This document shows, one piece after another, positions 1 to 15,477 of a DNA stretch of 15,477 nucleotides. Origin of the DNA: Desulfobacterales bacterium. Its GTDB lineage: Bacteria; Desulfobacterota; Desulfobacteria; Desulfobacterales; JAFDCJ01. Position 1 is the first letter of the stretch. Every line of letters starts with the position of its first letter. The translations under genes were made by a program, and so were the position numbers. The notes below the pieces were generated by a model that worked only from the letters and a program-made list of their open reading frames with translations, made no database searches and had not been told where the DNA came from. The DNA lies in the NCBI GenBank assembly GCA_029939875.1, contig JAOZSC010000016.1, forward strand, positions 1 to 15,477, given 5' to 3'.

Positions 1-1288
1 CCAGTGCTTCCTGGATTTCATACTCCCAGGCAGGCATCTCGTCGCGGCTTTCCAGACAAACCAGGGTAACATTTTCGGCTCCTTTGCGCTTGGCGGTCAG
101 CGCCACATCGATGGCCACGTTGCCGCCGCCAACCACGATGACATCCTCACCGATGGGGACATCTTTTCCCAGGGCGCTGTCGCGCAGAAAATCCACCCCC
201 TGTAAAACACCGTCAATATCTTCATTTTCCACCCCCAGCGCGCGTCCGCCATGCAGTCCGATGGCCATGAACAGGGCCGAAAAACCGTCCGCTTTGAGGC
301 TGTCCAGGGTAATGTCCTTGCCGAAAGTGACCCCGGTTTTGATGGTGACGCCCATATCCTCGATCACCTTGATTTCGTCGTCGATAATATCCCGGGGCAG
401 CCGGTATTCGGGAATTCCCACCCGCATCATGCCGCCGGTGACCGGCAGTTTTTCGAAAATCGTCACCGGGTATCCGTCGCGGGCCAGAAAATAGGCCGCC
501 GCCAGTCCCGCCGGCCCCGAGCCCACAATAGCGACTTTTTCGCTGCGCGCTTCGGCCGTTTCAGGAATAAATGTTTCGTCCCGGCCCAGTTCCCAGTCGG
601 CCAGAAATCGGTGCAGTTCCCGGATCGCCAGGGGCTGGTCCAAGTCGTTGCGGGTACAGATTTCCTCGCACGGATGGTGGCATACCCGCCCGCAAATGCC
701 GGGAAAGGGGTGTTCCTCTTTGAACAGTTCCAGTGCCTCGAAGTATTTGCCCTCATTGATCAAAGCAATATAGCCCTGGATGCTGACATGGGCCGGGCAG
801 GTCGCCTTGCAGGGGGCCGTGCCGCGTTTGCTGATGCCAAAGGCCCCGGGAATCGCCTGGGGGTATTGCTTGTAAATTGCCTTGCGCTCAGAAAGCCCTT
901 CGTCGTACTCGTTTGGCAAAGAGATTGGGCATACCTTTTCGCACTCGCCACAGCTTGTGCATTTGGCAAGATCTACAAAGCGGGGCTGCTGTTTGACAGT
1001 CGCCGTGAAATTTCCCGGCTTGCCTTTCAGATCCAGCAGTTCGGTATCGGTTAACAGTTCGATGTTCAGGTGCCGGCCGACCTCGACCAGTTTAGGTGAA
1101 ATAACTCACATGGCACAGTCATTGGTGGGAAAAGTTTTATCCAGCTGGGACATCAATCCGCCAATGGCGGCCAGCTTTTCCACCAGATAGACATAGTAGC
1201 CGGATTCAGCCAGATCGAGTGCTGCCTGCATCCCGCTGATCCCGCCGCCGACAACCATAACAGATCCTACTGTCGTGTCATTGCTCAT
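1..1288 (-). CDS. hdrA: HdrA-type FAD oxidoreductase with GltD-like insert, selenoprotein, 3'-partial
   Basis: About 429 codons of a larger protein that continues beyond the left window edge. It starts with a Rossmann FAD motif ([10 protein letters not shown]) and the HdrA signature [11 protein letters not shown]. An in-frame TGA (1106-1108, codon 61) follows, and the frame stays open after it with [11 protein letters not shown], a CxxCxxCxxxCP ferredoxin motif and a GltD/Fer4_20 segment. That segment has its own GSGPAG FAD motif and a [11 protein letters not shown](P) motif. Known HdrA proteins have Cys where the TGA lies, so I read selenocysteine rather than a stop. The ATG at 1286-1288 is chosen because it matches the paralogue at 4195 codon for codon up to the UGA; an AGGAG lies 13 nt upstream. 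At the end of the second NAD(P) strand it reads CLESR where the paralogue has YRRTR, which suggests different nucleotide preference (inference). Likely the first half of an HdrL-like protein in electron bifurcation. Confidence 0.88.
1073..1090 (-). promoter_or_regulatory. Candidate bacterial SECIS hairpin of the minus-strand hdrA
   Basis: Fifteen nt after the UGA, CTGGTC pairs with GGCCGG (6 bp including two G-U pairs) around the loop GAGGTC. The loop GG lies 24-25 nt after the UGA, comparable with the SelB-binding apical loop of E. coli fdhF. The hairpin is identical in the plus-strand hdrA copy, although codons on either side differ at third positions. Confidence 0.65.
1106..1108 (-). other. 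In-frame UGA read as selenocysteine (codon 61 of the minus-strand HdrA)
   Basis: The TGA directly follows FPTNDCAM, where HdrA family members carry a conserved Cys in an FeS/FAD-proximal motif. Homology continues in the same frame without a gap on both sides. HdrA selenoproteins are known in methanogens and deltaproteobacteria. A hairpin follows at the right distance. Confidence 0.85.
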
Positions 1289-3310: not shown

Positions 3311-4180
3311 ATGCAGCTAAAACGCAAATTCGAAACCGGAGAATTTGCCGTCCTGGCGGAAATAGAACCGCCCAAGGGGGTGGACACCTCCCGGATGCTG
3401 GCCAGCGTCAAGCGGGTCAAGGGCAACGTGGATGCTTTCGTGGTGCCGGAAATGAGCAATGCCGTCATGCGCATGAGTTCCCTCGGTGGGGCCATGATAC
3501 TGCAAGGGCTGGGGGTGGAAACGGTGGTCCAGGTATGCTGCCGCGACCGCAACCGACTGGCCCTGCAAGCCGACCTCCTGGCGGCTTCCGGATGCGGCAT
3601 CTGCAACGTCATGGCAGTCACCGGTGAAGATCCGAGTTACGGGGACCATCACCAGGCGCGGCCCGTATACGACATTGATATTTTCGAACTGCTGCAGGCG
3701 GTCCAAAGTCTGCAGTCCGGACGGGACATGGCCGGCATCGAGATTGGCGGCGCCCCCGAATTTATGGTCGGCTCTACGGTCAATGCCGGTGCCAGGGGCA
3801 AGTCACCCGAATTGGAGCTGGAAGAAATGAACAAAAAGATGGCGGCCGGAGCCAAATTTTTTATCACCCCGCCCGTGTTTGACAAAACGGCTCTCGATCC
3901 GTTTCTCAAACGGGTGGACCGCTCCAGGGCCATCATCGTTCCCACCGTGCTGCTGCTCAAATCTCTCGGAATGGCTCGTTACATCCAGCGCAATATGGAG
4001 CATGTTTATATCCCCGATGAACTGATTGACCGCATCCGCAAAGCCCCGGACAAGGTGCGCGAATGCATTCACATTGCCGCACAATTGATCACAACCTTAA
4101 AACAGGAAGGATTTCACGGTGTTTTGATCGCCACCCTTGGCTGGGAAGACAGGCTGCCGGAAATTCTGGAATTGACATGA
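3311..4180 (+). CDS. metF: Methylenetetrahydrofolate reductase family protein (first MetF copy)
   Basis: 289 residues, the normal size of a single-domain bacterial or acetogen MetF (TIM barrel, FAD). The AEIEPPKG segment aligns with the EFFPP region of E. coli MetF, placing the catalytic Glu at E17. The [15 protein letters not shown] and [15 protein letters not shown] segments are the folate/FAD barrel motifs. The ATG at 3311 is chosen because GGAGG (3301-3305) sits 5 nt upstream. The ATG at 3296 would overlap that site, and the open frame further upstream runs through the promoter and leader. It is the first gene after the sigma-54 promoter and ends 14 nt before the large hdrA, so the two are probably co-transcribed. 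It is clearly diverged from the second MetF at 10019. It may reduce methylene-THF or act as a folate- or flavin-binding partner of HdrA; the substrate is not proven by sequence. Confidence 0.85.
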
Positions 4181-4194
4181 GAGGGACAGATAAT

Positions 4195-7100
4195 ATGGAA
4201 AACCCCCGCAAAATCGGTTCGGTTATGGTACTCGGAGGTGGCATTGCCGGGATGCAGTCCGCCCTGGACCTCGCCAATTCCGGCTATTACGTCTATCTGG
4301 TGGAAAAATCAGCTGCCATCGGAGGACTCATGTCGCAGCTGGACAAAACCTTTCCTACCAACGACTGCGCCATGTGAATCATCTCACCCAAACTGGTCGA
4401 GGTCGGCCGGCATCTGAACATCGAACTGTTGACCAACAGTGAACTGATGAGTCTTGAAGGCCATCCGGGAAATTTCACCGCCCGGGTGAAAAAACAGGCG
4501 CGTTTTGTAGATCTTGCCAAGTGCACCAGCTGTGGAGAATGCGCCAAGGTCTGCCCGGTGGAGCTTTCCAACGAATACGACGAGGGCCTCGCCCTTAAAA
4601 AAGCCGCTTACAAGCAGTATGCCCAGGCGATCCCGGGGGCCTTTGCCATCCAGAAAACAGACCCGGCGCCCTGCCGCCTGGCCTGCCCGGGGGGACTCAA
4701 TGTGCAGGGATATGTCCAGATGGTCAAACAGGGCAAATATAAAGAAGCCCTGGAAATCATCATGGAAGACCTCCCGCTGCCCGGCGTTCTGGGGCGTATC
4801 TGTCCCCACGGCTGCGAAGATGCCTGCCGCCGCTGCGAGGTGGATCACCCGGTGGCCATCCGGAATCTAAAACGCCTGGCCGCAGACCGCTTCGACTGCC
4901 GCCAGATCGAAATAGACTGCCCGCCCCCGGCTGAGGAAAAGGTGGCCATTATCGGCTCCGGGCCCGCCGGGCTTTCAGCCGCCTACCATCTGGCCAGAAA
5001 AGGCATCCTGTCCACCATCTTTGAAGCCCTGCCAAAAGCGGGGGGCATGTTGCGCGTGGGCATTCCAGCCCATCGCCTGCCACGGAAAATACTGGACCAG
5101 GAGATAGAGGTCATTACCGGCCTGGGGGTAGAAATCAAAACCAACACCCCGCTGGGCAAAGATCTGAGCATTGACGACCTGCTCAACGACGGGTACCGGG
5201 CCGTCTACCTGGCCTTAGGCGCCCACCGGGGAATCGAACTGGCGATTCCCGGTGAAAAAGCCCAAGGTGTGCGCCAGGGAGTCGATTTTTTACGCGAAGT
5301 GAACCTCACCGGCAAAACCGCGGTGGGTAAAAAACTGGCCATCATCGGCGGCGGCAACGTGGCCATTGACGTCTCCCGCGCCGCGGTGCGCCTGGGTGTC
5401 GATGAGGTTACCATCATTTATCGGCGTACACGCGCCGAGATGCCCGCCTGGGAAGAGGAAATCCAGGCCGCCGAAGCCGAAGGGGTCCGGATCACTTACC
5501 TTTCCGCTCCCAAAGAAGTTTTGACCGCAGGCGATCGGGTCATCGGTTTGCGCTGCATTCGCATGGAACTTGGCGAACCTGACGAATCCGGCCGCAGAAG
5601 ACCGGTGCCCATAGCTGGCAGTGAATACGACATCGACATCGATCAGCTGATCGCCGCCATCGGCCAGAAACCCAACCTGGCGCCCCTCGAGGATCTGGCC
5701 GGGGTGAACTTTTCCCGCTGGGGGACCGTTGAAGTGGACAAGCTCACCTGCGCCACTGAAAAGCCCGGAGTTTTTGCCGGCGGGGATCTGCAGACCGGAC
5801 CGGCGGTGGCCATCGGCGCCATTGGTGCCGGCAAGGAGGCCGCCGAGTCCATCTTCCGTTATCTCAACGGTCAAGACATGGCCGCCGGGCGCCAACCGGC
5901 GGTCAATGAAGCCCCCGACTTCCGCCCGGTTCCTGAAAAAGAACCTCAACAGGCGCGGGCTGAAATGCCCGAGCTGCCCGCAGCCGAGCGTCGCGACAAC
6001 TTCAATGAAGTCGAACTGGGATATGACGAGACCGCCGGACAGATCGAAGCCGGCCGCTGTCTCAACTGCGGCTACTGCTCCGAGTGCTACCAGTGCGTCA
6101 CCGCCTGCCTGGCCGATGCCATCGATCACAGCCAGCAATCCGAGACCCTCGACCTTTCGATCGGCTCGGTGATTTTAAGCCCGGGCAGTCGGCCCTTCGA
6201 CCCCGCCGACCTGGAAAATATCTACCATTACAAAACCTGTGCCAACGTGCTCACCAGCCTCGAATTTGAACGTCTCCTCAGCGCCTCGGGTCCCACCATG
6301 GGCCATCTGCTCAGGCCGTCAGATGAAAAAGACCCCAAGAAAATCGCCTGGCTGCAATGCGTGGGCTCCCGGGACACCAATCGGTGCGGCAACAGCTACT
6401 GCTCATCAGTGTGCTGCATGTACGCGCTGAAAGATTCCATGATTGCCAAAGAGCATGCCGGTGGCGACCTGGACTGCGTCATTTTCAACATGGACATCCG
6501 CACCTTCGGCAAGGATTATGAAAAATATTACCAGCGCGCCAAAGACGCCGGCATCCGATTTTACAAATCACGTATTCATTCCCTGGACGAAGTACTTGGC
6601 ACCGACGATCTGAGCATCCGCTACATGGATGAGGCCGGTGCGCTGCAAGAGGAAACATTTGACATGGTCGTGCTCTCGGTGGGACTTCAGATACCCGCTT
6701 CGGTGGCCGATCTGGCCCGCCGGCTGGACGTTAAACTGGATGCACACAATTTTGCCGCCACCCACCCTTTTGCACCGGTAAAAACCTCACGCCCCGGCAT
6801 CTATGTCTGCGGAGTTTTCCAGGAGCCCAAGGACATTCCCAGTTCCGTGATGGAAGCCAGCGCCGCCGCATGCCTGGCCGGAAGTGATCTGGTACAAGTC
6901 CGTGATACCCTCACCCGCAGCGTCGAGCTTCCGCCTCAAATCGATGTAACCGAGCAGGAACCGAGAATCGGCGTGTTTGTCTGCCACTGCGGTATCAATA
7001 TCGCCGGAGTGGTGGATGTGGAAGCGGTGGAAGACTATGCCAGGACCCTGCCCCACGTGGTTCATGCCGGCCGCAACCTGTTCAGCTGCTCCCAGGATTC

Positions 7101-8628
7101 CCAGGAGCTGATGAAAGACCTTATCAAGGAGCATGGCCTCAATCGGTTGGTCATCGCCGCCTGCACGCCCAAGACCCACGAGCCGATCTTCATGGACACC
7201 CTGGAAGAATCCGGACTCAACAAGTATCTCATCGAAATGGCCAACATCCGCAATCAGAATTCCTGGGTTCACTCGCAAAATCCCCGCCAAGCCACCGAAA
7301 AAGCCAAGGACCTGGTGCACATGGCCGTTGCCCGTGCCTCCACCCTGTACCCGCTGGAGGAGAAAAAAATTTCCGTTATTCAGCGGGCCCTGGTACTCGG
7401 CGGTGGGGTGGCGGGGATGAACGCCGCCCTGAGCCTGGCCGACCAGGGCTTTGAAGTCGTTCTCGTGGAAAAGGAAAAACAACCGGGGGGACTTGCCACC
7501 CGGTTGACCGCCACCATCGAAGGCGCTGTAATTGGGGAATATTTAACGCAACTGTTACAAAAAGTATCCGGCCATGACAATATCCAGGTCCTGACACAGT
7601 CGCTGGTGGTCGGCTTTTCGGGGTTCAAGGGCAATTTCACCACTGAACTGCTGATCGGACCCGGTATGTATGAACGCAAGGTGGATCATGGCGTCGTCAT
7701 CCTGGCCACGGGTGCCGATGAGTACCGGCCCAAAGAGTATCTTTACGGCGAGGATAAACGGGTGGTCACCCAGATCGAACTGGCCGACCGGCTCGAAGAA
7801 AATTTCGCCGCTGATCTTCAGCAGGTGGTCATGATCCAGTGTGTCGGGTCCCGCAATGATGAAAATCCCAACTGCTCCAGGATCTGCTGCCAGACGGCCG
7901 TTAAAAACGCCTTGCACATCAAAAAAGACAATCCGGACGCGGAGGTTTACATTCTCTATCGCGACATCCGCACCTATGGCGTGCTGGAGGATTACTACAA
8001 GGAAGCCCGGCGGCTGGGGGTGCTGTTTTTCCGTTTCACCCCCGACGATCCTCCCCGGGTGCAATCAACCGGACAGGCCCTGACGGTGACGTTTAAAGAC
8101 CATGTCCTGGATCTGGATCTGGAAGTCGAGACCGATCTGTTAGCCTTGAGCGCCGGAATGGTGGCTGCCGACACCGAAGAGCTGGCCTCGATCATAAAAG
8201 TGGCGCGCAACGCGGAAGGCTATTTCATGGAGGCCCATGTCAAATTGCGACCGGTTGACATGTCCACCGAGGGCATCTTCGTCTGCGGCACGGCCCACAG
8301 CCCCAAGCTGATCTCCGAGACCATTTCCCAGGCCCAGGCGGCCGCTTCACGGGCCACCACCTTCCTGTCCCAGAGCCAGTTGACCCTGTCGGCGGTAACC
8401 GCCCACGTGGAGGCAGAGCACTGTGCCTCCTGTCTGATATGCGTGCGGTCCTGCCCCTTCGGTGTGCCGCGGATCAATACCGAGGGCGTCAGCGAAATCG
8501 ACATGGCCCTTTGCCACGGGTGCGGCATCTGCGCCTCGGAATGCCCGGCCAAGGCCATTGACCTGCGGTGGTACCAGGACGAGCAGATCATGTGCAAATT
8601 GGACGCCCTGCTGGAAGGAGCCCTTTAG
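4195..8628 (+). CDS. hdrA: HdrL-like double-module HdrA with GltD-like insert, selenoprotein
   Basis: 1477 residues including Sec61. Module A has the FAD motif GGGIAG near the start, FPTNDCAM-U, and CxxCxxCxxxCP at 110-120. A GltD/Fer4_20 insert follows (Cys 160, 164, 203, 207, 211, 214; FAD motif GSGPAG 254-259; NAD(P) motif GGGNVA 385-390 with YRRTR at 409-413), then a dense Cys cluster (622-638) and an HdrA QCVGSRD...CSSVCCM segment. Module B begins with the HdrA N-terminal motif GVFVCHCG (about 926), has a second FAD site GGGVAG (1069-1074) and a second QCVGSR...CSRICC. It ends in two ferredoxin motifs (1410-1420 and 1440-1450). Canonical HdrA is about 650 residues. The family carries out flavin-based electron bifurcation; the insert probably adds NAD(P)H chemistry, as in NfnB/GltD. 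The ATG at 4195 has GAGGG upstream and aligns with the paralogue on the minus strand. A standard gene caller would split it at the UGA. Confidence 0.93.
4375..4377 (+). other. In-frame UGA read as selenocysteine (codon 61 of the large HdrA)
   Basis: The TGA replaces the conserved HdrA Cys after FPTNDCAM. The reading frame stays open for more than 1400 codons on the far side, starting with [12 protein letters not shown], which is contiguous HdrA homology. There is no ribosome-binding site at the downstream TTG or ATG codons that could start a separate protein. Confidence 0.9.
4393..4410 (+). promoter_or_regulatory. Candidate bacterial SECIS hairpin of the large hdrA
   Basis: CTGGTC (4393-4398) pairs with GGCCGG (4405-4410) around the loop GAGGTC, starting 16 nt after the UGA, with the loop GG at 24-25 nt. 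The loop resembles the AGGUCU apical loop of E. coli fdhF. It is identical to the minus-strand copy at 1073-1090. Confidence 0.7.
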
Positions 8629-8669
8629 AAGTTGGAAGGCGGAATGCGGAAGTGGGAAGTGGGGAGGCG
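8628..8669 (+). repeat. Degenerate 7-bp tandem repeat (GAAGNNG family)
   Basis: Starting at the last base of the hdrA stop codon, six heptads follow without a gap: GAAGTTG, GAAGGCG, GAATGCG, GAAGTGG, GAAGTGG, GGAGGCG. The tract is entirely outside genes. It overlaps a small GC hairpin, GGCGC-TGAC-GCGCC (8666-8679), that has no T-run. Confidence 0.6.
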
Positions 8670-8680
8670 CTGACGCGCCA

Positions 8681-8715
8681 GTTAATAGCTGATGGCTCAT
8701 AGGTGGAAGGGGAAA
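8681..8715 (+). repeat. Second 7-bp tandem repeat tract (GCTSATA family running into GGNGGAA)
   Basis: Five heptads in register: GTTAATA, GCTGATG, GCTCATA, GGTGGAA, GGGGAAA. The first three belong to the same family as the tract after the aroE-like gene at 12283. The remainder of the 208-nt hdrA-mvhD spacer (8716-8836) is purine-rich and then AT-rich; TTGCGC-N17-TAAAGA near 8774-8802 is at best a weak promoter. Confidence 0.55.
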
Positions 8716-8836
8716 GGGCTGGAAGGCTGGGAAACGCCCCAAAAGGACACCGAGAGCGAGGCCGAAATACCTATTGCGCGGGGTGAACGCACTTTTTAAA
8801 GAAGTTACCGTATTTTTATAAAAGAGGGGATCTCCC

Positions 8837-9268
8837 ATGAGCGAGGATTTCACACCAATCATCATCGCGTTTTGCTGCAATTTCTGAGGGTATACCGCTG
8901 CGGACCTGGCAGGTACCATGCGACTGCAATACCCGACCGACATTCGTATCATTCGCGTTCCGTGCACCGGCAAAGTCGATGTACTGCATATTCTGCACGC
9001 CTTTGAAAAGGGCGCCGACGGGGTTTACGTCGTCGGGTGCATGGAAGGCGATTGTCACTATAACAGCGGCAACCTGAGAGCCCGCAAACGGGTAGAGCAG
9101 GCGGCCATCATTCTCGACACCATCGGCATCGGCGGGCAACGGGCCCAGATGTATAACCTGGCCTCCAGCGACGGTCCCCTTTTCGCAAAATACGCTGCCG
9201 AGATGGATACGAGAATCCGCGAGATGGGTCCCAACCCCATCAAACTGGCCCAAAAAAATGCCGCATAG
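8837..9268 (+). CDS. mvhD: MvhD-family [2Fe-2S] electron-transfer subunit, selenoprotein
   Basis: 143 residues including Sec17, the usual MvhD length (about 140). The N-terminal motif reads FCCNFU-GYTAADLAG against the family pattern FCCNWCSYxGAD, so UGA stands at the last Cys of the cluster. C43 (RVPCTG), C68 and C73 (GCMEGDCHY) complete the MvhD pattern. A His to Met change is seen at residue 69 of the usual GCHxGDCHY. In methanogens and acetogens MvhD passes electrons between a partner (hydrogenase, formate dehydrogenase or MTHFR) and HdrA. The ATG at 8837 has GAGGGG upstream. A caller that stops at UGA would start at the internal ATG (8918) and lose the first 27 residues, including the cluster motif. 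It sits between hdrA and metV, which suits its role as connector. Confidence 0.9.
8885..8887 (+). other. In-frame UGA read as selenocysteine (codon 17 of MvhD)
   Basis: The TGA sits at the fourth position of the FCCNxC motif. Upstream (FCCNF) and downstream (GYTAADLAG) sequence together rebuild the family motif in one frame, and a ribosome-binding site precedes only the upstream ATG. MvhD/VhuD selenoproteins are known in methanogens. Confidence 0.88.
8904..8914 (+). promoter_or_regulatory. Candidate SECIS hairpin of mvhD
   Basis: ACCT-GGC-AGGT forms a perfect 4-bp stem with loop GGC, with the two loop G bases 21-22 nt after the UGA. This is the spacing expected for the SelB-contacting Gs of bacterial SECIS elements. 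The stem is short; an outer GGTA/TACC pairing (8889-8892 and 8914-8917) could compete with or extend it. Confidence 0.5.
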
Positions 9269-9277
9269 CAACTGCAT

Positions 9278-9333
9278 CGGTTGGTCGCACAAGACAGCGC
9301 CGGTCCACAGGCGGGAATCCTCCCCACCAACCG
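9278..9333 (+). other. Long-range inverted repeat between mvhD and metV
   Basis: CGGTTGGT (9278-9285) and ACCAACCG (9326-9333) are a perfect 8-bp inverted repeat enclosing 40 nt. That loop can itself fold through CGCC/GGCG (9298-9301 and 9310-9313). It fills most of the 85-nt spacer and ends just before the metV ribosome-binding site. It may be a processing or translation-tuning structure; there is no T-run, so not a terminator. Confidence 0.4.
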
Positions 9334-9353
9334 GGAAAGAGAGGGCGAAATTT

Positions 9354-10022
9354 ATGATTGTTGCCGATAAAAAACCGATTGAAGAAATCATCGAGCAAGT
9401 CAAGGACAAAAAAACGGTTCTGGTACTGGGATGCAACGAGTGCGTCACGGTTTGCGAAGCCGGAGGCAAAAAGGAAGTGGGCATTCTCGCGTCAGCCCTG
9501 CGCATGTATTTTCTCAACCAGGGGCAGGAAATAAAAATTGACGAGGTGACCCTTGAACGGCAGTGCGATCACGAATACCTGGAAGAGATCCGGGATGTGA
9601 TCGACCGTTACGATGCCGTTGTCTCCATCGCCTGCGGTGTGGGAGTCCAGTTCATGGCCGAAAAATACCATTCGACACCGATTTTTCCCGGCGTGAACAC
9701 CTGCTTTCTGGGGGTGACCGAAGAGCGCGGCCTGTGGACTGAACGCTGCCAGGCCTGCGGTAGCTGTATCCTGGCCACCACCGGCGGGATCTGCCCGGTA
9801 TCGCGCTGCGCCAAGCGGCTGCTCAACGGGCCCTGCGGTGGTTCCACCGGCGGCAAGTGCGAAATCAGTAAAGAAGTCGACTGTGCCTGGCAGCTGATTG
9901 TCGACCGTCTCAAGGCGCTGGACAAAATGGACGATTTCGAAACCATTGCACCCGTTAAGGACTGGTCCACGGACAGGGCGGGAGGACCCCGTAAAGTGAA
10001 CAGGGAGGATGTGCAGCCATGA
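9354..10022 (+). CDS. metV: MetV, methylene-tetrahydrofolate reductase small (C-terminal-type) subunit
   Basis: 222 residues with two Cys-rich regions. CNECVTVC comes early (C27, C30, C34), and CQACGSC starts at C132, followed by GGICPVSRCAKRLLNGPCGGSTGGKCE and a further Cys. This is the pattern of the MetV/MTHFR C-terminal family that partners MetF in acetogens and binds zinc and/or FeS clusters. The ATG at 9354 is preceded by GAGGG with an 8-nt spacer; the longer open frame from 9258 overlaps mvhD and lacks such a site. The stop overlaps the metF start (ATGA), implying translational coupling and a 1:1 complex. With MvhD directly upstream it resembles the Moorella MetVF-HdrCBA-MvhD arrangement, but without HdrB and HdrC. 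Confidence 0.9.
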   Translation: MIVADKKPIEEIIEQVKDKKTVLVLGCNECVTVCEAGGKKEVGILASALRMYFLNQGQEIKIDEVTLERQCDHEYLEEIRDVIDRYDAVVSIACGVGVQFMAEKYHSTPIFPGVNTCFLGVTEERGLWTERCQACGSCILATTGGICPVSRCAKRLLNGPCGGSTGGKCEISKEVDCAWQLIVDRLKALDKMDDFETIAPVKDWSTDRAGGPRKVNREDVQP

Positions 10023-10951
10023 ATCTAAAGACACCCAGCAAATTGGAAAAAATTCTGGCCGCCGGCCATCTTGCCGTTACCTCGGAATGTGGCCCGCCCC
10101 GGGGCAGCGATCCGGAAGTCATCACCCGTAAGGCAGAAATGATCAAGGACCACGTGGATGCCATCAACATTACCGATAACCAGACCTCGGTGACCCGTAT
10201 GTGCAGCCTGGCGGCCTGCATCCGGCTCAAACTCATGGGTCTGGAGCCGGTGTTACAGATGGTTACCCGGGACCGCAACCGTATCGCTCTGCAAAGCGAC
10301 ATCCTGGGAGCAGCCGCGTTTGACATCCACAACATCCTGTGCCTGTCCGGAGATCACCTGAGTTTCGGCGACTGTGCCCAGGGACAGAACGTCCACGACC
10401 TGGACTCCATGCAGTTGATCCAGACCGTTCGGCACATGCGCGATGAGGGTAAATTTCTCGGCGGGGATGATATCAAACGGCCGCCACAGATGTTCGTCGG
10501 GGCGGCGGCCAACCCGTTTGCCGATCCGTTTGAAATCCGGGTGCCGCGGCTGGCAAAAAAAATTGCCGCCGGAGTGGAATTCGTCCAAACCCAGTGTATT
10601 TACAATCTCGACAAATTCGAAGAATGGATGAAGCTGGCCCGTGACCGGGGACTGCATGAAAAAGTATATATCCTGGCGGGAATGACCCCCATGAAAAATG
10701 CCGGCATGGCCCGGTATATGAAAAACAGGGTGCCCGGCATGGATGTCCCCGACGAGCTCGTCAAGCGTTTAGCAGATACTCCCAAGGAAAAACAGGCCGA
10801 CGAAGGCATCAAGATCTGCATTGAAGCCATCCAGCGGCTCAAGGAAATCGAGGGAGTCGCCGGTTTTCATATCATGGCCATCGAATGGGAACAAAAAGTG
10901 CCCGAGATCGTGGAAGCTGCCGGTCTTTACCCCCGGCCACAAATCGACTGA
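10019..10951 (+). CDS. metF: Methylenetetrahydrofolate reductase, MetV-associated (second MetF copy)
   Basis: 310 residues. The TSECGPPRGSD segment is typical of the MetVF-type MetF, with the catalytic Glu at E23 by alignment to the E. coli EFFPP region. RDRNRIALQSDILGAAAFDIHNILCLSGDH supplies the barrel FAD/folate motifs, and FVQTQCIYNLDKFEEW and GMTPMKNAGMARYM are family segments further on. It reduces methylene-THF to methyl-THF in the methyl branch of the Wood-Ljungdahl pathway, or runs in reverse in acetate oxidisers. Translation is coupled to metV by a 4-nt overlap, with GGAGG 10 nt upstream. It is the better candidate for the catalytic reductase of the complex; the copy at 3311 may have a distinct role. 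Confidence 0.93.
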   Translation: MNLKTPSKLEKILAAGHLAVTSECGPPRGSDPEVITRKAEMIKDHVDAINITDNQTSVTRMCSLAACIRLKLMGLEPVLQMVTRDRNRIALQSDILGAAAFDIHNILCLSGDHLSFGDCAQGQNVHDLDSMQLIQTVRHMRDEGKFLGGDDIKRPPQMFVGAAANPFADPFEIRVPRLAKKIAAGVEFVQTQCIYNLDKFEEWMKLARDRGLHEKVYILAGMTPMKNAGMARYMKNRVPGMDVPDELVKRLADTPKEKQADEGIKICIEAIQRLKEIEGVAGFHIMAIEWEQKVPEIVEAAGLYPRPQID

Positions 10952-11044: not shown

Positions 11045-11434
11045 ATGAGCGAGAAAAAAAAGATCCTGGTGGTGGATGACGAACCCGATTTCGCCTCCCT
11101 TGTCCAGGGAAATCTGGAAAAAGAAGGCTTTGAAGTCGATGTCGCCTATAACGGTGTGGAGGGAATCGAAAAGGTTCATGCCGCACCGCCGGACGCCATT
11201 GTGCTGGATGTGATGATGCCGGAAAAAGACGGCTACAAGGTTTGCGCAGAATTAAAAGCCGATGCACGCTATGCGAACATCCCCATCATTCTGCTGACCG
11301 CCGTGGCCTCCCACGTAACCTCCACCCGGTACTCTCATGCGGACGGGATGAGCACTGAAGCCGATGACTATCTTCCCAAACCGGCCTCGGCAGAGCAAAT
11401 CACCGAAAGCGTCAAGGGCCTGTTGGGTTTGTGA
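11045..11434 (+). CDS. Single-domain response regulator (receiver only)
   Basis: 129 residues, a complete CheY-like receiver and nothing else. The acidic pair is D11/D12, the phospho-acceptor D55, the switch Thr T85 and the Lys K112. The stretch between T85 and K112 (ASHVTSTRYSHADGMSTEADDY) is a few residues longer than usual, giving an unusual alpha4-beta5 region. A perfect AAGGAGGA (11033-11040) lies 4 nt before the ATG at 11045; a TTG at 11006 in the same frame is rejected. It lies 93 nt after metF and 32 nt before the aroE-like gene. With no output domain it probably acts by protein contact or as a relay step, possibly receiving phosphate from one of the kinases at 12330-15303 (inference). 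Confidence 0.9.
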   Translation: MSEKKKILVVDDEPDFASLVQGNLEKEGFEVDVAYNGVEGIEKVHAAPPDAIVLDVMMPEKDGYKVCAELKADARYANIPIILLTAVASHVTSTRYSHADGMSTEADDYLPKPASAEQITESVKGLLGL

Positions 11435-11466: not shown

Positions 11467-12282
11467 ATGAAAGTATTCTGCATTTTAAGTGACGAACGGG
11501 TGTATCGCTCTAAATCCCCGGCCATGTTTTCCATGGTTCTGCAACGCATCGGGATCCAGGCGGCTTATGTGCCCTTTAAAGTCGAGCCGCAGAAAATAGG
11601 TCAGGCGCTTCAGGGGCTTAAGGTCCTGAACATCGCCGGTGCCAACGTCACTGTTCCGTATAAAGAGATGGTCATCCCCCACCTGGACGGATTGTCCGAA
11701 GGGGCCAACATCATCGGCGCCATCAACACCATCGTGCGCAACGGCGATGAGCTCAAGGGATACAATACCAACGCCATCGGCTTCATGGATGCCTTGAACA
11801 AGGCCGGTTTTGAAACCGCCGGCAAGTCCGCGCTGGTTTTTGGAACCGGAGGGGCGGCCAAGGCGGTGGTCTTCATGTTAAACTGGCTGCAGGCTGCCAC
11901 CGTCCATGTAGCCGGGCGTGACATTGCAAAAACCGACCGCATCGTGGATAAATTCGGGGGAACGGCACATCGGCTCAACGATCTGGCGGATCATCCCGTT
12001 AGTCCAGACATTGTGGTCAATGCCACTTCGGTTTCCAGCCCCCGGGAAGGCCCCCGGCTGGCGGACCTGGTGGCAAACCTGCAGATTCCCGGCTGTCAGC
12101 TGGTTTTTGATCTGAACTACGGGCGCAGTGAAAATTTCTGGCAAACCATGGCCCGCCGCAACAACATCCGGTTTATGGACGGTCTTACGGCCCTGGCCTT
12201 CCAGGCCCGACGCACCCTGGCCCTGTGGACCGGGGTGCAGGTGGCTCCCGAAGAGTTTCTCAACGCGCTGCCGGGGACCTAA
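11467..12282 (+). CDS. aroE: Shikimate dehydrogenase (AroE) family protein with altered active site
   Basis: 271 residues, normal AroE length. It has the substrate-binding SKSPAM near residue 15, GANVTVPYKE with catalytic K66, GAINTIV (84-90), a nucleotide motif GTGGAAKA, AGRD with a possible NADP-binding Arg, NATSV, and a C-terminal WTG. The otherwise canonical GxNTDxxG motif reads GYNTNAIG, so the catalytic Asp (D102 in E. coli AroE) is Asn102 here. The C-terminal DxVYNP-like motif reads DLNYGRSE. Substrate and activity are therefore uncertain; AroE-like proteins with other substrates are known, and its place behind C1 genes may be meaningful. It is the last gene of the plus-strand series, with a weak ribosome-binding site, and is followed by a terminator. 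Confidence 0.82.
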   Translation: MKVFCILSDERVYRSKSPAMFSMVLQRIGIQAAYVPFKVEPQKIGQALQGLKVLNIAGANVTVPYKEMVIPHLDGLSEGANIIGAINTIVRNGDELKGYNTNAIGFMDALNKAGFETAGKSALVFGTGGAAKAVVFMLNWLQAATVHVAGRDIAKTDRIVDKFGGTAHRLNDLADHPVSPDIVVNATSVSSPREGPRLADLVANLQIPGCQLVFDLNYGRSENFWQTMARRNNIRFMDGLTALAFQARRTLALWTGVQVAPEEFLNALPGT

Positions 12283-12329: not shown

Positions 12330-13832
12330 CTATGAGCTATCTGCTTCTTTCACCGGTAATGTGACCGTAAACGTGCTGCCGCTGGCTGGAGTGCTTTCCA
12401 CGTCGATAAACCCACCCAGGGAGTCCACCAACCCCTTGACGATGGGCAGGCCCAGGCCCGTGCCGGTTATAAAGCGGGTATTTTCATCTTTTACCCGGTA
12501 AAATCTGTCAAAAATTTTTTCCAGGTGGCGGGCCCCGATGCCAAATCCGTTGTCGATAACGCTTACCCGTATGCTGATTCCCGCAAGCTCCGCCCGGACC
12601 CGGATCAGACCGCCTTGCGGCGTGTAATTGAGGGCATTGGCAATCAGGTTGCCGAAAATGCTTTCCAACGCCAGGGGATCCGCCATCAGTGCCGGCAGCG
12701 GTTGGTCCGGCAAATCGAGAAGCAGGGACTGATTTTTGCCCTTTGCCCGGGTTCCCATAAAATCGACGATATTTTTCAGCAGTTCATCGATGCACACGGA
12801 GGTAGGCTCCTGGGTAACAATGCCCGCCTCGATACGGGATAAATCAAGCAAATCTCCGATCAGGGAAATCAGACCATGGGTTTTTTCCTTGGCCCGCTGG
12901 AGAATGTGGGGGTCCACCCCGGAGGATTCTTCCAGCATTTCACTGAGCACATGGGCCAGCTGTTCGTGAATGGTGGACAGCGGTGAACGCAGTTCATGGG
13001 AAACCTTGGCCACGAATTCGGATTTCATGCGGTCTATGATTTTCATGCTGGTGATGTCCACCAGGTTGACCACGGCTCCCAGGCACTGGTTTTTTTCACC
13101 CAGCACCGGCCGGCTGCGAGCCAGGAGAAATTTTTCGTCGGAGACATCCAGCTCATGGCTGGGAATGTCCTCATAGTCCACGTGCCAGCCCTGGGAGATT
13201 TCCCGAATCAAATTGCAAAACTCGTTGTCGGCAATACAGGCTTCAATGGGTTTGCCCGGAGCACAGTCAGGCGGTAAATCCAGCAGCTGTAAAAAAGCCG
13301 GATTCATCAAGACCATCTGCCCCTGTGAATTGGTCACCCCCACGCCGTCGGGAAGTGATTCGACAATGGTGCGAATGCGAGTTTTTTCAGTATGAAGGTC
13401 GGCCAGCGTCCGGTTGCGCTCTTCTTCCAAAGCCCGGGTCTCGTGGAGCAACTGCATTTTTTCGGCTGCCCGGTTGACGACAATCCGCAGTTGCTCCGGC
13501 TCGAAAGGTTTGGCAATAAAATCATAGGCGCCGTTTTTCATTGCTTCAATGGCCGTTTCCACCGTGGCAAAACCCGTAATCATAATCACCAGGGTGGTCT
13601 CGTCCATCTCCCTGACATGGGTGAGAACCTGCATCCCGTCCATGCCGGGCATCTTCAGGTCCAGCAAAAGGATGGGAACGCTATTGCGGCTCATCACCTC
13701 CAGGGCGGCGGCTCCGGTGGAGGCTGTCAGGACCTGAAAACCAATCCGGGTAAGGATGCGCTCACAGGCATCCCGGATATCCTTTTCATCATCTACAACC
13801 AGCACCGACATGGGTTTGTCAGTCTTGTCCAC
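12330..13832 (-). CDS. Receiver-PAS histidine kinase (hybrid two-component sensor)
   Basis: 500 residues. An N-terminal receiver (about 8-125; D14/D15, phospho-acceptor D58, T86, K108) is followed by a short coiled segment (about 125-152), a PAS domain (about 150-262), HisKA with H279 in SHELRSP, and a HATPase domain with DNGFGIG and GTGLGLPIVKGLV. There are no transmembrane segments, so it is cytoplasmic. The receiver-first order fits a relay that is itself switched by another kinase, plausibly the neighbour it overlaps by 14 nt. The start is GTG at 13832, supported by AAGGAG 6 nt upstream; the ATG 21 nt downstream has no such site. Its last codons (GAT AGC TCA TAG) coincide with an inverted copy of the intergenic heptad repeat. 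Confidence 0.92.
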   Translation of the reverse strand: MDKTDKPMSVLVVDDEKDIRDACERILTRIGFQVLTASTGAAALEVMSRNSVPILLLDLKMPGMDGMQVLTHVREMDETTLVIMITGFATVETAIEAMKNGAYDFIAKPFEPEQLRIVVNRAAEKMQLLHETRALEEERNRTLADLHTEKTRIRTIVESLPDGVGVTNSQGQMVLMNPAFLQLLDLPPDCAPGKPIEACIADNEFCNLIREISQGWHVDYEDIPSHELDVSDEKFLLARSRPVLGEKNQCLGAVVNLVDITSMKIIDRMKSEFVAKVSHELRSPLSTIHEQLAHVLSEMLEESSGVDPHILQRAKEKTHGLISLIGDLLDLSRIEAGIVTQEPTSVCIDELLKNIVDFMGTRAKGKNQSLLLDLPDQPLPALMADPLALESIFGNLIANALNYTPQGGLIRVRAELAGISIRVSVIDNGFGIGARHLEKIFDRFYRVKDENTRFITGTGLGLPIVKGLVDSLGGFIDVESTPASGSTFTVTLPVKEADSS

Positions 13833-15303
13833 CTTGATCTCCTTGAGTTTTGCGCATGGCTACGGGAAGCTCGATGACGAAAGCGGCTCCGCCTGCAGGC
13901 TGATTGCGGGCATGAATCCGGCCCCCGTGATTTTCAATAATTCCGTATACCAGGCTGAGTCCCAGGCCGGTCCCCTGCCCCTCCTCTTTGGTGGTATAAA
14001 ACGGGTCAAAAATGCAGGGCATCACCGCGTCGGCAATGCCGGGGCCCGAGTCTGCAATCTCCACCACCACCCACCCGACGGCGGCATCGTGATCGGTGGT
14101 GATCGTCAGTTTCCCCTTGCCGTCCATGGCCTGGGCGGCATTTAAAATGATATTCATAAAGACATGGTTCAGCTGTTGGATGTCCGCGTTTACCGGCGGC
14201 AGATCGGCTGCAAACTTTTTTTCGATTTCTATATTTTGAAACAGGCTTTGATTTTCCAATAGAAACAGGGTGCGGGCAATGGCCTGGTTGACTTCGTGGG
14301 GTCGCATATGATGGCGGGTTTGACGGGTAAATTCCAGCAGTTCCTTGACCGTATCCCGGCACCTGCGGGCATCTTTGAGAATCCGTTGCAGATCCTGCCG
14401 TACGCCTTCTTCCAGCTCGTATTCCTCCAAAGCCAGTTTGGCAAACAATGTGATGCCGCCCAGGGGATTGTTGATCTGGTGGGCCACTCCGGCTGCCAGT
14501 TTACCCAGGGAAGCCATTTTTTCAGCCTGCAACAGCTGAACCTGGGTTTTTTCCAACTCCGCCTTGATGCGCAGCCGCTCCCGCAGGTCATGGAAAAAGC
14601 CGATGGTCGCCGTCTCGCGTCCATCCTCATAGATGATGGAGGCATAAAGACTGATGGGAATCAATTCACCGTTTTTGGCCTTCACATCGACGTGGTATCT
14701 TTTCAGTTTACCCTTTGCCCCGTATTCGTCACTGCGCAGTTTGCGCATCACTTCTTTGGCCCCATCGCCGGGGTACAGATCGCGGATGTTCAGATCCTTT
14801 AAGGCTTCCTCCACGCTGTAGCCGAATATTTCGGCCGCCGAGTTGTTGAAATTCAGGATCTTGCCGCTCAGGTCGGCGGCAATCACACAGTCAACCGCAC
14901 TGAGAATCAGGTTGCTGAAAAAAGCATTGGTGCGCCGCAGCTTTTCTTCGAGCGCATCCAGGGCGGGAAAATCAAAATCCATCATTACATAGCCGTCAAT
15001 TTTTCCACTGGAAACCAGGGGGTAGGAATACAGGCATGGTATCTGGTTCGGTTTCTGGGGAGGATGGTACCCGTGGCTAAGTGCCGGCTGGCGCAGACGA
15101 CTCACCTTGAAAGTCGGACACTCGATGCAGGCCGCTTGGCGCTTGTACAGGGTTTTGTAACATTTGCTTCCGATGACATCGCTGCCGGAAACGCCGGTAT
15201 CGTGTCCCCGGATGGCCAGTATTTCAAACTGCGGGGACACCACCAGTATTTTACGATTGAACGCGTCCAGGGCCCGCAGCATGATTTTGGTCTGTTCATC
15301 CAT
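13819..15303 (-). CDS. PAS-domain sensor histidine kinase with Cys cluster
   Basis: 494 residues from the ATG at 15303. The N-terminal PAS-like domain carries CX10CxxCP (C48, C59, C62), a pattern seen in Desulfobacterota sensor PAS domains that could bind metal or sense redox. A second PAS (about 125-240) follows, then HisKA with H275 in AHQINNPL and a HATPase domain with DSGPGIAD and GTGLGLSLVYG. There are no transmembrane segments, hence cytosolic. The frame is open up to an ATG at 15408, but that 35-residue extension has atypical codons and composition. A plausible -35/-10 pair lies inside it, so the 15303 start is preferred although it lacks a good ribosome-binding site. It overlaps the next kinase gene by 14 nt, so the two form an operon. 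The target regulator is unknown; the NtrC-type protein and the lone receiver in this window are candidates. Confidence 0.88.
   Translation of the reverse strand: MDEQTKIMLRALDAFNRKILVVSPQFEILAIRGHDTGVSGSDVIGSKCYKTLYKRQAACIECPTFKVSRLRQPALSHGYHPPQKPNQIPCLYSYPLVSSGKIDGYVMMDFDFPALDALEEKLRRTNAFFSNLILSAVDCVIAADLSGKILNFNNSAAEIFGYSVEEALKDLNIRDLYPGDGAKEVMRKLRSDEYGAKGKLKRYHVDVKAKNGELIPISLYASIIYEDGRETATIGFFHDLRERLRIKAELEKTQVQLLQAEKMASLGKLAAGVAHQINNPLGGITLFAKLALEEYELEEGVRQDLQRILKDARRCRDTVKELLEFTRQTRHHMRPHEVNQAIARTLFLLENQSLFQNIEIEKKFAADLPPVNADIQQLNHVFMNIILNAAQAMDGKGKLTITTDHDAAVGWVVVEIADSGPGIADAVMPCIFDPFYTTKEEGQGTGLGLSLVYGIIENHGGRIHARNQPAGGAAFVIELPVAMRKTQGDQGGQD
13839..13844 (-). promoter_or_regulatory. 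Ribosome-binding site deciding the GTG start of the hybrid kinase
   Basis: AAGGAG on the minus strand, 6 nt before GTG (13830-13832) and inside the end of the upstream kinase gene. It implies translational coupling of the two kinases. Confidence 0.7.
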
Positions 15304-15365
15304 GGTTGTTTTGACCGCAATGGGGTTCGATAATTCCAGAAAACATCCTCGGCCCGAAATGTAGA

Positions 15366-15394
15366 AAAATACGCTACAAACCAAATAATTGCAA
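15366..15394 (-). promoter_or_regulatory. Candidate sigma-70 promoter of the kinase operon
   Basis: Minus-strand TTGCAA (15389-15394), 17 nt, then TATTTT (15366-15371), which predicts a start near 15359 and a leader of about 56 nt before the ATG at 15303. Beyond it, 15395-15477 shows nothing I recognise. Confidence 0.4.
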
Positions 15395-15477
15395 GCTGAT
15401 TTAGGCATCAATTAAGGCTCAATCATCATATTCAACCAACACGACGATTGAAATGCCGGTAAAATGCTGTTATGAAT

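Follow-up and report, generated by a model that had tools for sequence, protein, structure and literature searches.

The 15,477-nucleotide stretch of DNA analyzed here, referred to as the window, is the entire contig JAOZSC010000016.1 of a Desulfobacterales bacterium, whose draft genome (GCA_029939875.1) comprises 3.04 Mb and is 80% complete. On its forward strand lie five consecutive genes, a MetF-like gene, hdrL, mvhD, metV and metF, whose products may form a methylene-tetrahydrofolate (methylene-THF) reductase (MTHFR) of the heterodisulfide reductase (Hdr) type. Each gene is supported by Pfam, and the order on one strand given by the first-pass annotation, a model's reading of the letters, is borne out by the open reading frames. 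The row opens with the MetF-like gene, MetFa (3311..4180; 289 residues, MTHFR fold, Pfam MTHFR E 9.8e-31), followed by hdrL (4195..8628; Pfam Pyr_redox_2 and Fer4_20), encoding a double HdrA flavoprotein of 1477 residues including a predicted selenocysteine (Sec) at position 61. The next genes are mvhD (FlpD, 8837..9268; 143 residues including Sec17, Pfam FlpD E 2.6e-48), metV (9354..10022; PF12225, MTHFR C-terminal, E 3.4e-37; DUF5981) and metF (10019..10951; Pfam MTHFR E 1.4e-35), which overlaps metV by 4 bases. By MetV, most of the closest named relatives are assigned to the Desulfobacterales or to families thereof, and dsrA (DsrA) was detected in the host genome.

The HdrL of the window matches the definition of this protein type, an HdrA fused to a glutamate-synthase-like NAD(P) domain with mvhD adjoining. 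The first HdrA module consists of residues 1-155 and 622-930 (the second half at 6058..6984) and contains a flavin adenine dinucleotide (FAD) domain with an inserted ferredoxin domain. The latter is itself split by a GltD/NfnB-like domain (residues 157-560, 4663..5874) with an NAD(P) site and the motif YRRTR..MPA, and cluster motifs are found on either side of it, at residues 110-120 and 622-638. The second module (residues 945-1477, 7027..8625) comprises an HdrA N-terminal domain, a FAD domain and a C-terminal domain with two [4Fe-4S] clusters; it is without the inserted ferredoxin domain. No CCG domain was found in HdrL by Pfam. The earlier description of a 1477-residue double HdrA with a GltD-like, NAD(P)-binding insert therefore stands as far as the domains are concerned; it missed the in-frame TGA codons of both HdrL and MvhD, and the design is already that of Moorella. 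The YRR motif of the insert has a YRR counterpart at the aligned position of the solved GltD-type domains nearest to it (9bov, 9n5u, 8oh5 and 4ylf), which we take to be Nfn/Stn-type transhydrogenase subunits, and points to NADP(H). Against this assignment stands the Moorella HdrA, which oxidizes NADH (PMC9430772).

The arrangement was followed through the order by a MetV search of 194 genomes, the host included, 181 of which gave a match at E<=1e-20. From the printed match list, 112 MetV-anchored regions were chosen for flank length and identity spread, not randomly; together with three regions of the host genome (the window and contigs C164 and C452, the last carrying its third MetV) they make up 115 loci, in which genes were mapped by tblastn. 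HdrA is complete in 102 of these and incomplete in 13. Within the order, hdrCB was called where HdrB and HdrC both matched at >40% identity, and class A, to which the window belongs, was separated from the rest at a MetV identity of 69%, a border fixed after the data were seen. Among the 102 complete loci, 61 carry GltD without hdrCB, none carries both, 16 carry hdrCB without GltD and 25 carry neither. The 61 GltD-bearing loci, the window counted, stem from 61 genomes with 30 family codes and show the order HdrL-MvhD-MetV-MetF; named strains with the operon include Desulfonema magnum, Desulfospira joergensenii and NaphS2 (12 of the 80 named MetV loci were mapped).

In the GltD-bearing loci, 52 of which show at least 6.3 kb upstream of metV and nine less, tblastn at E 1e-6 gave no HdrB or HdrC match at any identity. 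HdrB, HdrC and HdrD are likewise absent from the window, both in a CCG-motif scan and in tblastn with the three proteins as queries; the motif scans took in 56 MetV loci, four host contigs, 40 loci of the wider phylum and the window, and the other fetched loci were covered by tblastn. The recurrence in 61 genomes indicates that hdrL-mvhD-metV-metF without hdrBC is a stable arrangement and not a gap in one contig. The lack of HdrB/HdrC noted in the first-pass annotation, the genomic association of HdrL with MetVF and the gene order suggested there as a check are consequently all confirmed, with an hdrC-hdrB pair in 0 of the 61 loci. HdrB/HdrC matches of 26% occur in L106, which is not among the GltD-bearing loci. 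In L106, as also in L210, HdrL is broken right after the Sec site with MvhD-MetV-MetF matches intact, which may reflect decay or an assembly error.

A second sample was drawn from 395 genomes across the phylum, from which 40 further loci were fetched, 34 with complete HdrA. Here 16 loci have GltD without hdrCB, five have both, 11 have neither and two have hdrCB without GltD; L299, in which hdrCB stands ahead of an outer second HdrA, was scored as lacking hdrCB. The five loci outside the order with both features correspond to the Moorella layout. The idea that GltD and hdrCB are strict alternatives fits the order (Fisher 5e-8, kinship ignored) and is ruled out by these five of 34 phylum loci.

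A further feature of the operon is the presence of in-frame TGA codons at two cysteine sites. The hdrL frame is open over 1477 residues only when the TGA at 4375..4377 (codon 61, NDCAMU at the HdrA NDCAM(C/U) site) is read through, and mvhD is open only when the TGA at 8885..8887 (codon 17, CCNFU at the CCNF(C/U) site) is translated; both are predicted to encode selenocysteine. At the HdrA site, TGA occurs in 60 of 60 readable GltD-bearing loci (the 61st, L039, lacks its 5' end), and the 16 hdrCB loci of the order all have cysteine there. In MvhD, TGA occupies the site in 61/61 GltD-bearing loci, in three of three loci with a mosaic HdrA (see below) and in the four other loci of that clade, and cysteine in 13/13 class B and 19/19 readable class C loci. 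SelA is encoded in the host genome. A 7-bp hairpin lies 15 nt past the HdrL TGA; in the search for folds resembling selenocysteine insertion sequences, those after both TGAs are no more stable than shuffled sequences. Judged by codon conservation, HdrL and MvhD are both apparently selenoproteins.

The two HdrA modules differ in the residues that mark bifurcating HdrA flavins, E356 and K409 of M. thermolithotrophicus (PMC9430772). Module 1 has both of them, as E692 and K746, and module 2 has K1237 with A1197 at the glutamate position, so that the signature is present once and not twice. The module 1 glutamate and lysine are conserved in all 99 aligned rows, 60 GltD-bearing rows among them. The module 2 glutamate occurs in 0/60 GltD-bearing rows versus 13/13 class B rows of the Desulfobacterales loci. 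This pattern carried over to the second phylum sample (7/7 hdrCB loci, 3/27 others), and in the combined table of 131 rows from the order and the rest of the phylum the glutamate is found in 20 of 23 hdrCB loci and in 3 of 108 others (20/3/3/105). The three hdrCB loci without it are the mosaics L063, L064 and L107, and a further exception is Sporomusa ovata, where HdrBC is present and the glutamate/lysine pair occurs in one module only (PMC9430772). L106 with its broken HdrL, L245 (22 in-frame stops) and L092 were excluded from alignments, residue counts, trees and identities, and L272 (9 stops) and L299 additionally from the 131-row table.

These data bear directly on the first-pass proposal of a self-contained enzyme in which HdrBC is replaced by the second HdrA module. 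Although the window does contain a second module and no hdrBC, the same module is present in 16/16 hdrCB loci of the order as well as in Moorella and Sporomusa (PMC9430772), the bifurcation glutamate is missing from it in most loci without HdrBC, and HdrL contains no Pfam CCG domain. The proposal is contradicted by this distribution and appears highly improbable.

Taking into account the conserved gene order, the domain anatomy, the TGA codons at Sec sites, the glutamate/lysine signature confined to module 1 and the exchange of module 1 as a block described below, HdrL-MvhD-MetV-MetF is probably (at about 0.6) a widespread HdrBC-free relative of the Hdr-type methylene-THF reductases. In such an enzyme, MetF, with its flavin mononucleotide, would carry out the methylene/methyl-THF chemistry, and MetV and MvhD would relay electrons. 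Module 2 of HdrL would be a plain relay, module 1 would hold the sole HdrA FAD able to bifurcate or confurcate, and the GltD insert would serve as an NAD(P)H port exchanging electrons with its own FAD. Where HdrBC is present, it may allow module 2 to act as a second bifurcation site; the mutual pulldown of HdrB and MetF in Sporomusa speaks against this. In a C1-oxidizing sulfate reducer the direction would probably be methyl-THF oxidation (-200 mV) with reduction of NAD(P)+ (-320 mV); since this step is uphill, a second, low-potential donor would be needed.

The nature of that second carrier is where a different explanation arises. As the GltD insert may block access of ferredoxin, as predicted for type III HdrA (PMC12054007), ferredoxin is only one candidate. 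It is conceivable, though doubtful, that ferredoxin is excluded altogether, because GltD sits in the ferredoxin-binding domain, and that the enzyme couples NAD(P)H to methylene-THF and to another acceptor or donor, for instance a membrane carrier reached via MvhD, or does not bifurcate at all. The position of the insert is consistent with this, as are two results from Sporomusa: 75% of MvhD was recovered with the membranes, and ferredoxin was not reduced (PMC9430772). However, the module 1 glutamate and lysine are kept in 99 of 99 rows, including the 60 with GltD, and methyl-THF oxidation is endergonic with NAD(P)+ alone. Ferredoxin has been proposed as the second donor for an acetate oxidizer (PMC6295475).

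Further insight into the organization of the HdrBC-free reductase comes from three relatives, L063, L064 and L107, in which HdrA is a mosaic with a break near residue 920-960, that is, at the module boundary. The N half is 68-76% identical to class B, the hdrCB class, and 45-54% to class A; for the C half the relation is reversed, with 68-71% identity to class A and 44-48% to class B. In the N-half tree the mosaics and class B form one starred set (100*), and the nearest C-half rows of the mosaics are each other and GltD-bearing rows. These loci have Sec in MvhD and cysteine in HdrA, and one mosaic genome (G189) has a genus code in common with three GltD-bearing genomes (G034, G093 and G129). 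In these three relatives, hdrCB and module 1 have been exchanged together as one block, and the module 2-MvhD-MetVF core that follows is unchanged. All trees come from quick searches, and those of the N half and of GltD carry a long-branch warning.

The insert itself varies as well. The GltD tree contains three clades: T1 (25 rows, YRRT, including the window), T2 (15 rows, YRR) and T3 (20 rows, CLE replacing YRR). These subtypes need 15 changes on the C-half tree, two to three per subtype being forced by starred branches, and 29 of the 30 family codes hold a single subtype. In L114, L246 and L255, a GltD-less HdrL of the window's clade has an extra MvhD ahead of it, and the HdrA of this pair is visible in L114 and L255. 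From these sequence patterns we infer that module 1 with its insert, or HdrBC, constitutes an exchangeable partner-side unit, and module 2-MvhD-MetVF the constant folate-side unit. A tentative and less likely extension is that Desulfobacterales and their relatives use an HdrBC-free double-selenoprotein MTHFR with one bifurcating flavin, whose partner half is a plug-in cassette (one of three GltD subtypes, HdrCB, or a second HdrA-MvhD pair) recombined at the HdrA module boundary; one MetVF core would thereby be rewired to different carriers by lineage, and the function of HdrBC would be a second bifurcation at module 2 and not the link to MetVF. This extension is weakened by the Sporomusa pulldowns, which also join HdrB and MetF.

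Several observations weigh against an HdrBC-free, NAD(P)H-linked enzyme. In Sporomusa, HdrB caught MetF and MetF caught HdrB, which places HdrB near MetVF where it is present, and H2 reduced methylene-THF with no NAD(P)+ or ferredoxin reduced alongside (PMC9430772); the Moorella complex showed no NADH-dependent methylene-THF reduction (PMC6295475). As for the comparative evidence, hdrCB and the module 2 glutamate undergo only 3-4 changes on the tree, too few for their correlation to reach significance by independent pairs. An approximately unbiased (AU) test of the C half with class B and the mosaics constrained to one side of a branch did not reject this topology (p 0.78), and the constrained tree even surpassed the unconstrained tree of the quick search by 27 log units; consequently, the tree alone is no proof, and the mosaic assignment relies on the identities and nearest rows. 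Moreover, the genes for HdrCB and module 1 are adjacent, and their joint transfer is therefore no proof of contact in itself. In the host's metagenome-assembled genome, selenocysteine tRNA gave no hit above cut-off, which says little at 80% completeness, and AcsB was not found at the same completeness; it was detected in 4 of 8 genomes of the host genus. Finally, host contig C164 (L007 and L240) carries a second MetVF cluster, consisting of an HdrA C-terminus, MvhD(Sec), HdrD(Sec), MetV and MetF, so that an HdrD is available in the host genome.

HdrD is a selenoprotein resembling HdrC fused to HdrB, and its place between MvhD and MetV on C164 means that a partner in trans is possible for the enzyme that the first-pass annotation called self-contained. 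If HdrD were supplied from elsewhere in the genome, the complex would not be HdrBC-free. Of the 51 GltD-bearing loci with 4 kb downstream in view, 13 have an HdrD of >50% identity some 2 kb downstream of metV, HdrD stands upstream of MetFa or HdrA in 8/21 class C loci, and an orthologue (E<1e-150) occurs in 55/61 GltD-bearing genomes versus 9/16 hdrCB genomes (hand count). On the other hand, an HdrD at >50% identity is missing from 38 of the 51 loci (L040 has one at 36%), HdrD is common in genomes of several classes, and a strong HdrD is wanting in six GltD-bearing genomes, namely G030 (96% complete), G040 (97%), G187 (91%), G004 (87%), G137 (82%) and G042 (77%), two of which are at least 96% complete. 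By gene content, HdrD is a possible partner and not a required one; a trans-acting HdrD as a functional partner is considered unlikely.

The question also arises whether MetVF works alone with ferredoxin, as the MetVF-only, ferredoxin-dependent enzyme of Clostridium ljungdahlii does (PMC8515935), HdrL-MvhD serving other partners and being merely co-regulated. L296 and L298 contain MvhD-MetV-MetF with no HdrA match, and L087 and L248 contain MetV-MetF with no HdrA or MvhD match in the fetched stretch; the last two may represent an HdrA-independent MTHFR in the order. Against such an independence, the linkage is repeated in 102 loci of the order with complete HdrA, and HdrA was pulled down with MetV and MetF in Sporomusa (PMC9430772), which makes this explanation quite improbable.

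Regarding the surroundings of the operon, 36 of the 52 GltD-bearing loci that show at least 6.3 kb of sequence upstream of metV also contain MetFa. It is conserved although a complete MetF stands further downstream in the same operon; candidate roles are a second reductase or a folate-binding paralogue. At the left end of the window, the 5' part of a second HdrL (1..1288, minus strand) points away from the operon and runs off the contig. It is 61% identical to residues 1-426 of the operon HdrL, has a TGA (1106-1108) at the same site and carries a CLE-type GltD insert; an inverted HdrL upstream of the operon is likewise found in L057, L058, L111, L112 and L117. After metF follow a single-domain response regulator (11045-11434, +) and a shikimate dehydrogenase (11467-12282, +), whose families are represented in 30 and 20, respectively, of the first 57 loci, in some with hdrD between both; neither gene has an obvious functional link to the operon. 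Genes for sigma-54-type response regulators and histidine kinases (1476-2837, 12330-13832 and 13819-15411, all on the minus strand) border the operon in the opposite orientation, and among the first 57 loci these two families recur in 26 and 34.

It has long been asked how, in the Wood-Ljungdahl pathway, the reduction of methylene-THF or the oxidation of methyl-THF is linked to energy conservation. If the interpretation favored here is true, the common Desulfobacterales form runs without HdrBC, and models in which HdrBC connects HdrA with MetVF would have to be revised. The natural series described above (GltD with or without HdrBC, HdrBC alone, neither, and three mosaics) offers comparable enzymes for assigning parts to carriers. 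No proposal of an Hdr-type MTHFR that functions in the absence of HdrBC was found in the literature searched, which lay outside subscription journals. Related gene arrangements are documented: MetFV-MvhD often lies away from hdrABC, with HdrABC assumed to be elsewhere in the genome (PMC6085437), HdrA and MvhD occur in an acs cluster with HdrBC encoded elsewhere (PMC6295475, PMC10608574), and an HdrL-like protein occurs with fdhAB and mvhD (PMC12142623); further background is given in PMC5736913, PMC5861303 and PMC7325909.

Among the known systems, MetVF-HdrCBA-MvhD of Moorella thermoacetica likewise has hdrA, mvhD, metV and metF together, and its HdrA of 1487 residues contains extra ferredoxin and thioredoxin-reductase-like (TrxR) domains interrupted by GltD (PMC9430772). 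As HdrL shares this layout, the double HdrA with a GltD insert is not peculiar to the window. Moorella differs in having hdrCB in the operon and the glutamate/lysine pair in both modules, whereas the window, whose HdrL and MvhD have TGA at the Sec sites, lacks hdrCB and has alanine for glutamate in module 2. HdrCBA-MvhD-MetVF of Sporomusa ovata resembles the window in its double TrxR HdrA, in the pair being present in one module only and in its MvhD and MetVF partners, but HdrCB is present and GltD is not; in favor of the HdrBC-free interpretation, a Strep-MetV pulldown caught HdrA and not HdrB (PMC9430772).

HdrL1-3 of Desulfobacterium autotrophicum are comparable as predicted Hdr/glutamate-synthase fusions with Sec in hdrL1 and hdrL3 and mvhD next to them, and HdrL has been proposed to act on NADH in sulfidogenesis; in the available part of the source, the hdrA/hdrL loci of this organism are associated with genes for dsrABC, fdh and hydrogenases instead of metVF, and no MTHFR role is proposed for them (PMC2702500). 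The HdrA proteins of methane-metabolizing archaea show the two architectural features separately, type II with two TrxR modules and type III with GltD in the ferredoxin-binding domain. In contrast, the window unites both in one protein and ties it to MetVF instead of the metabolism of the coenzyme M-coenzyme B heterodisulfide, CoM-S-S-CoB (PMC12054007).

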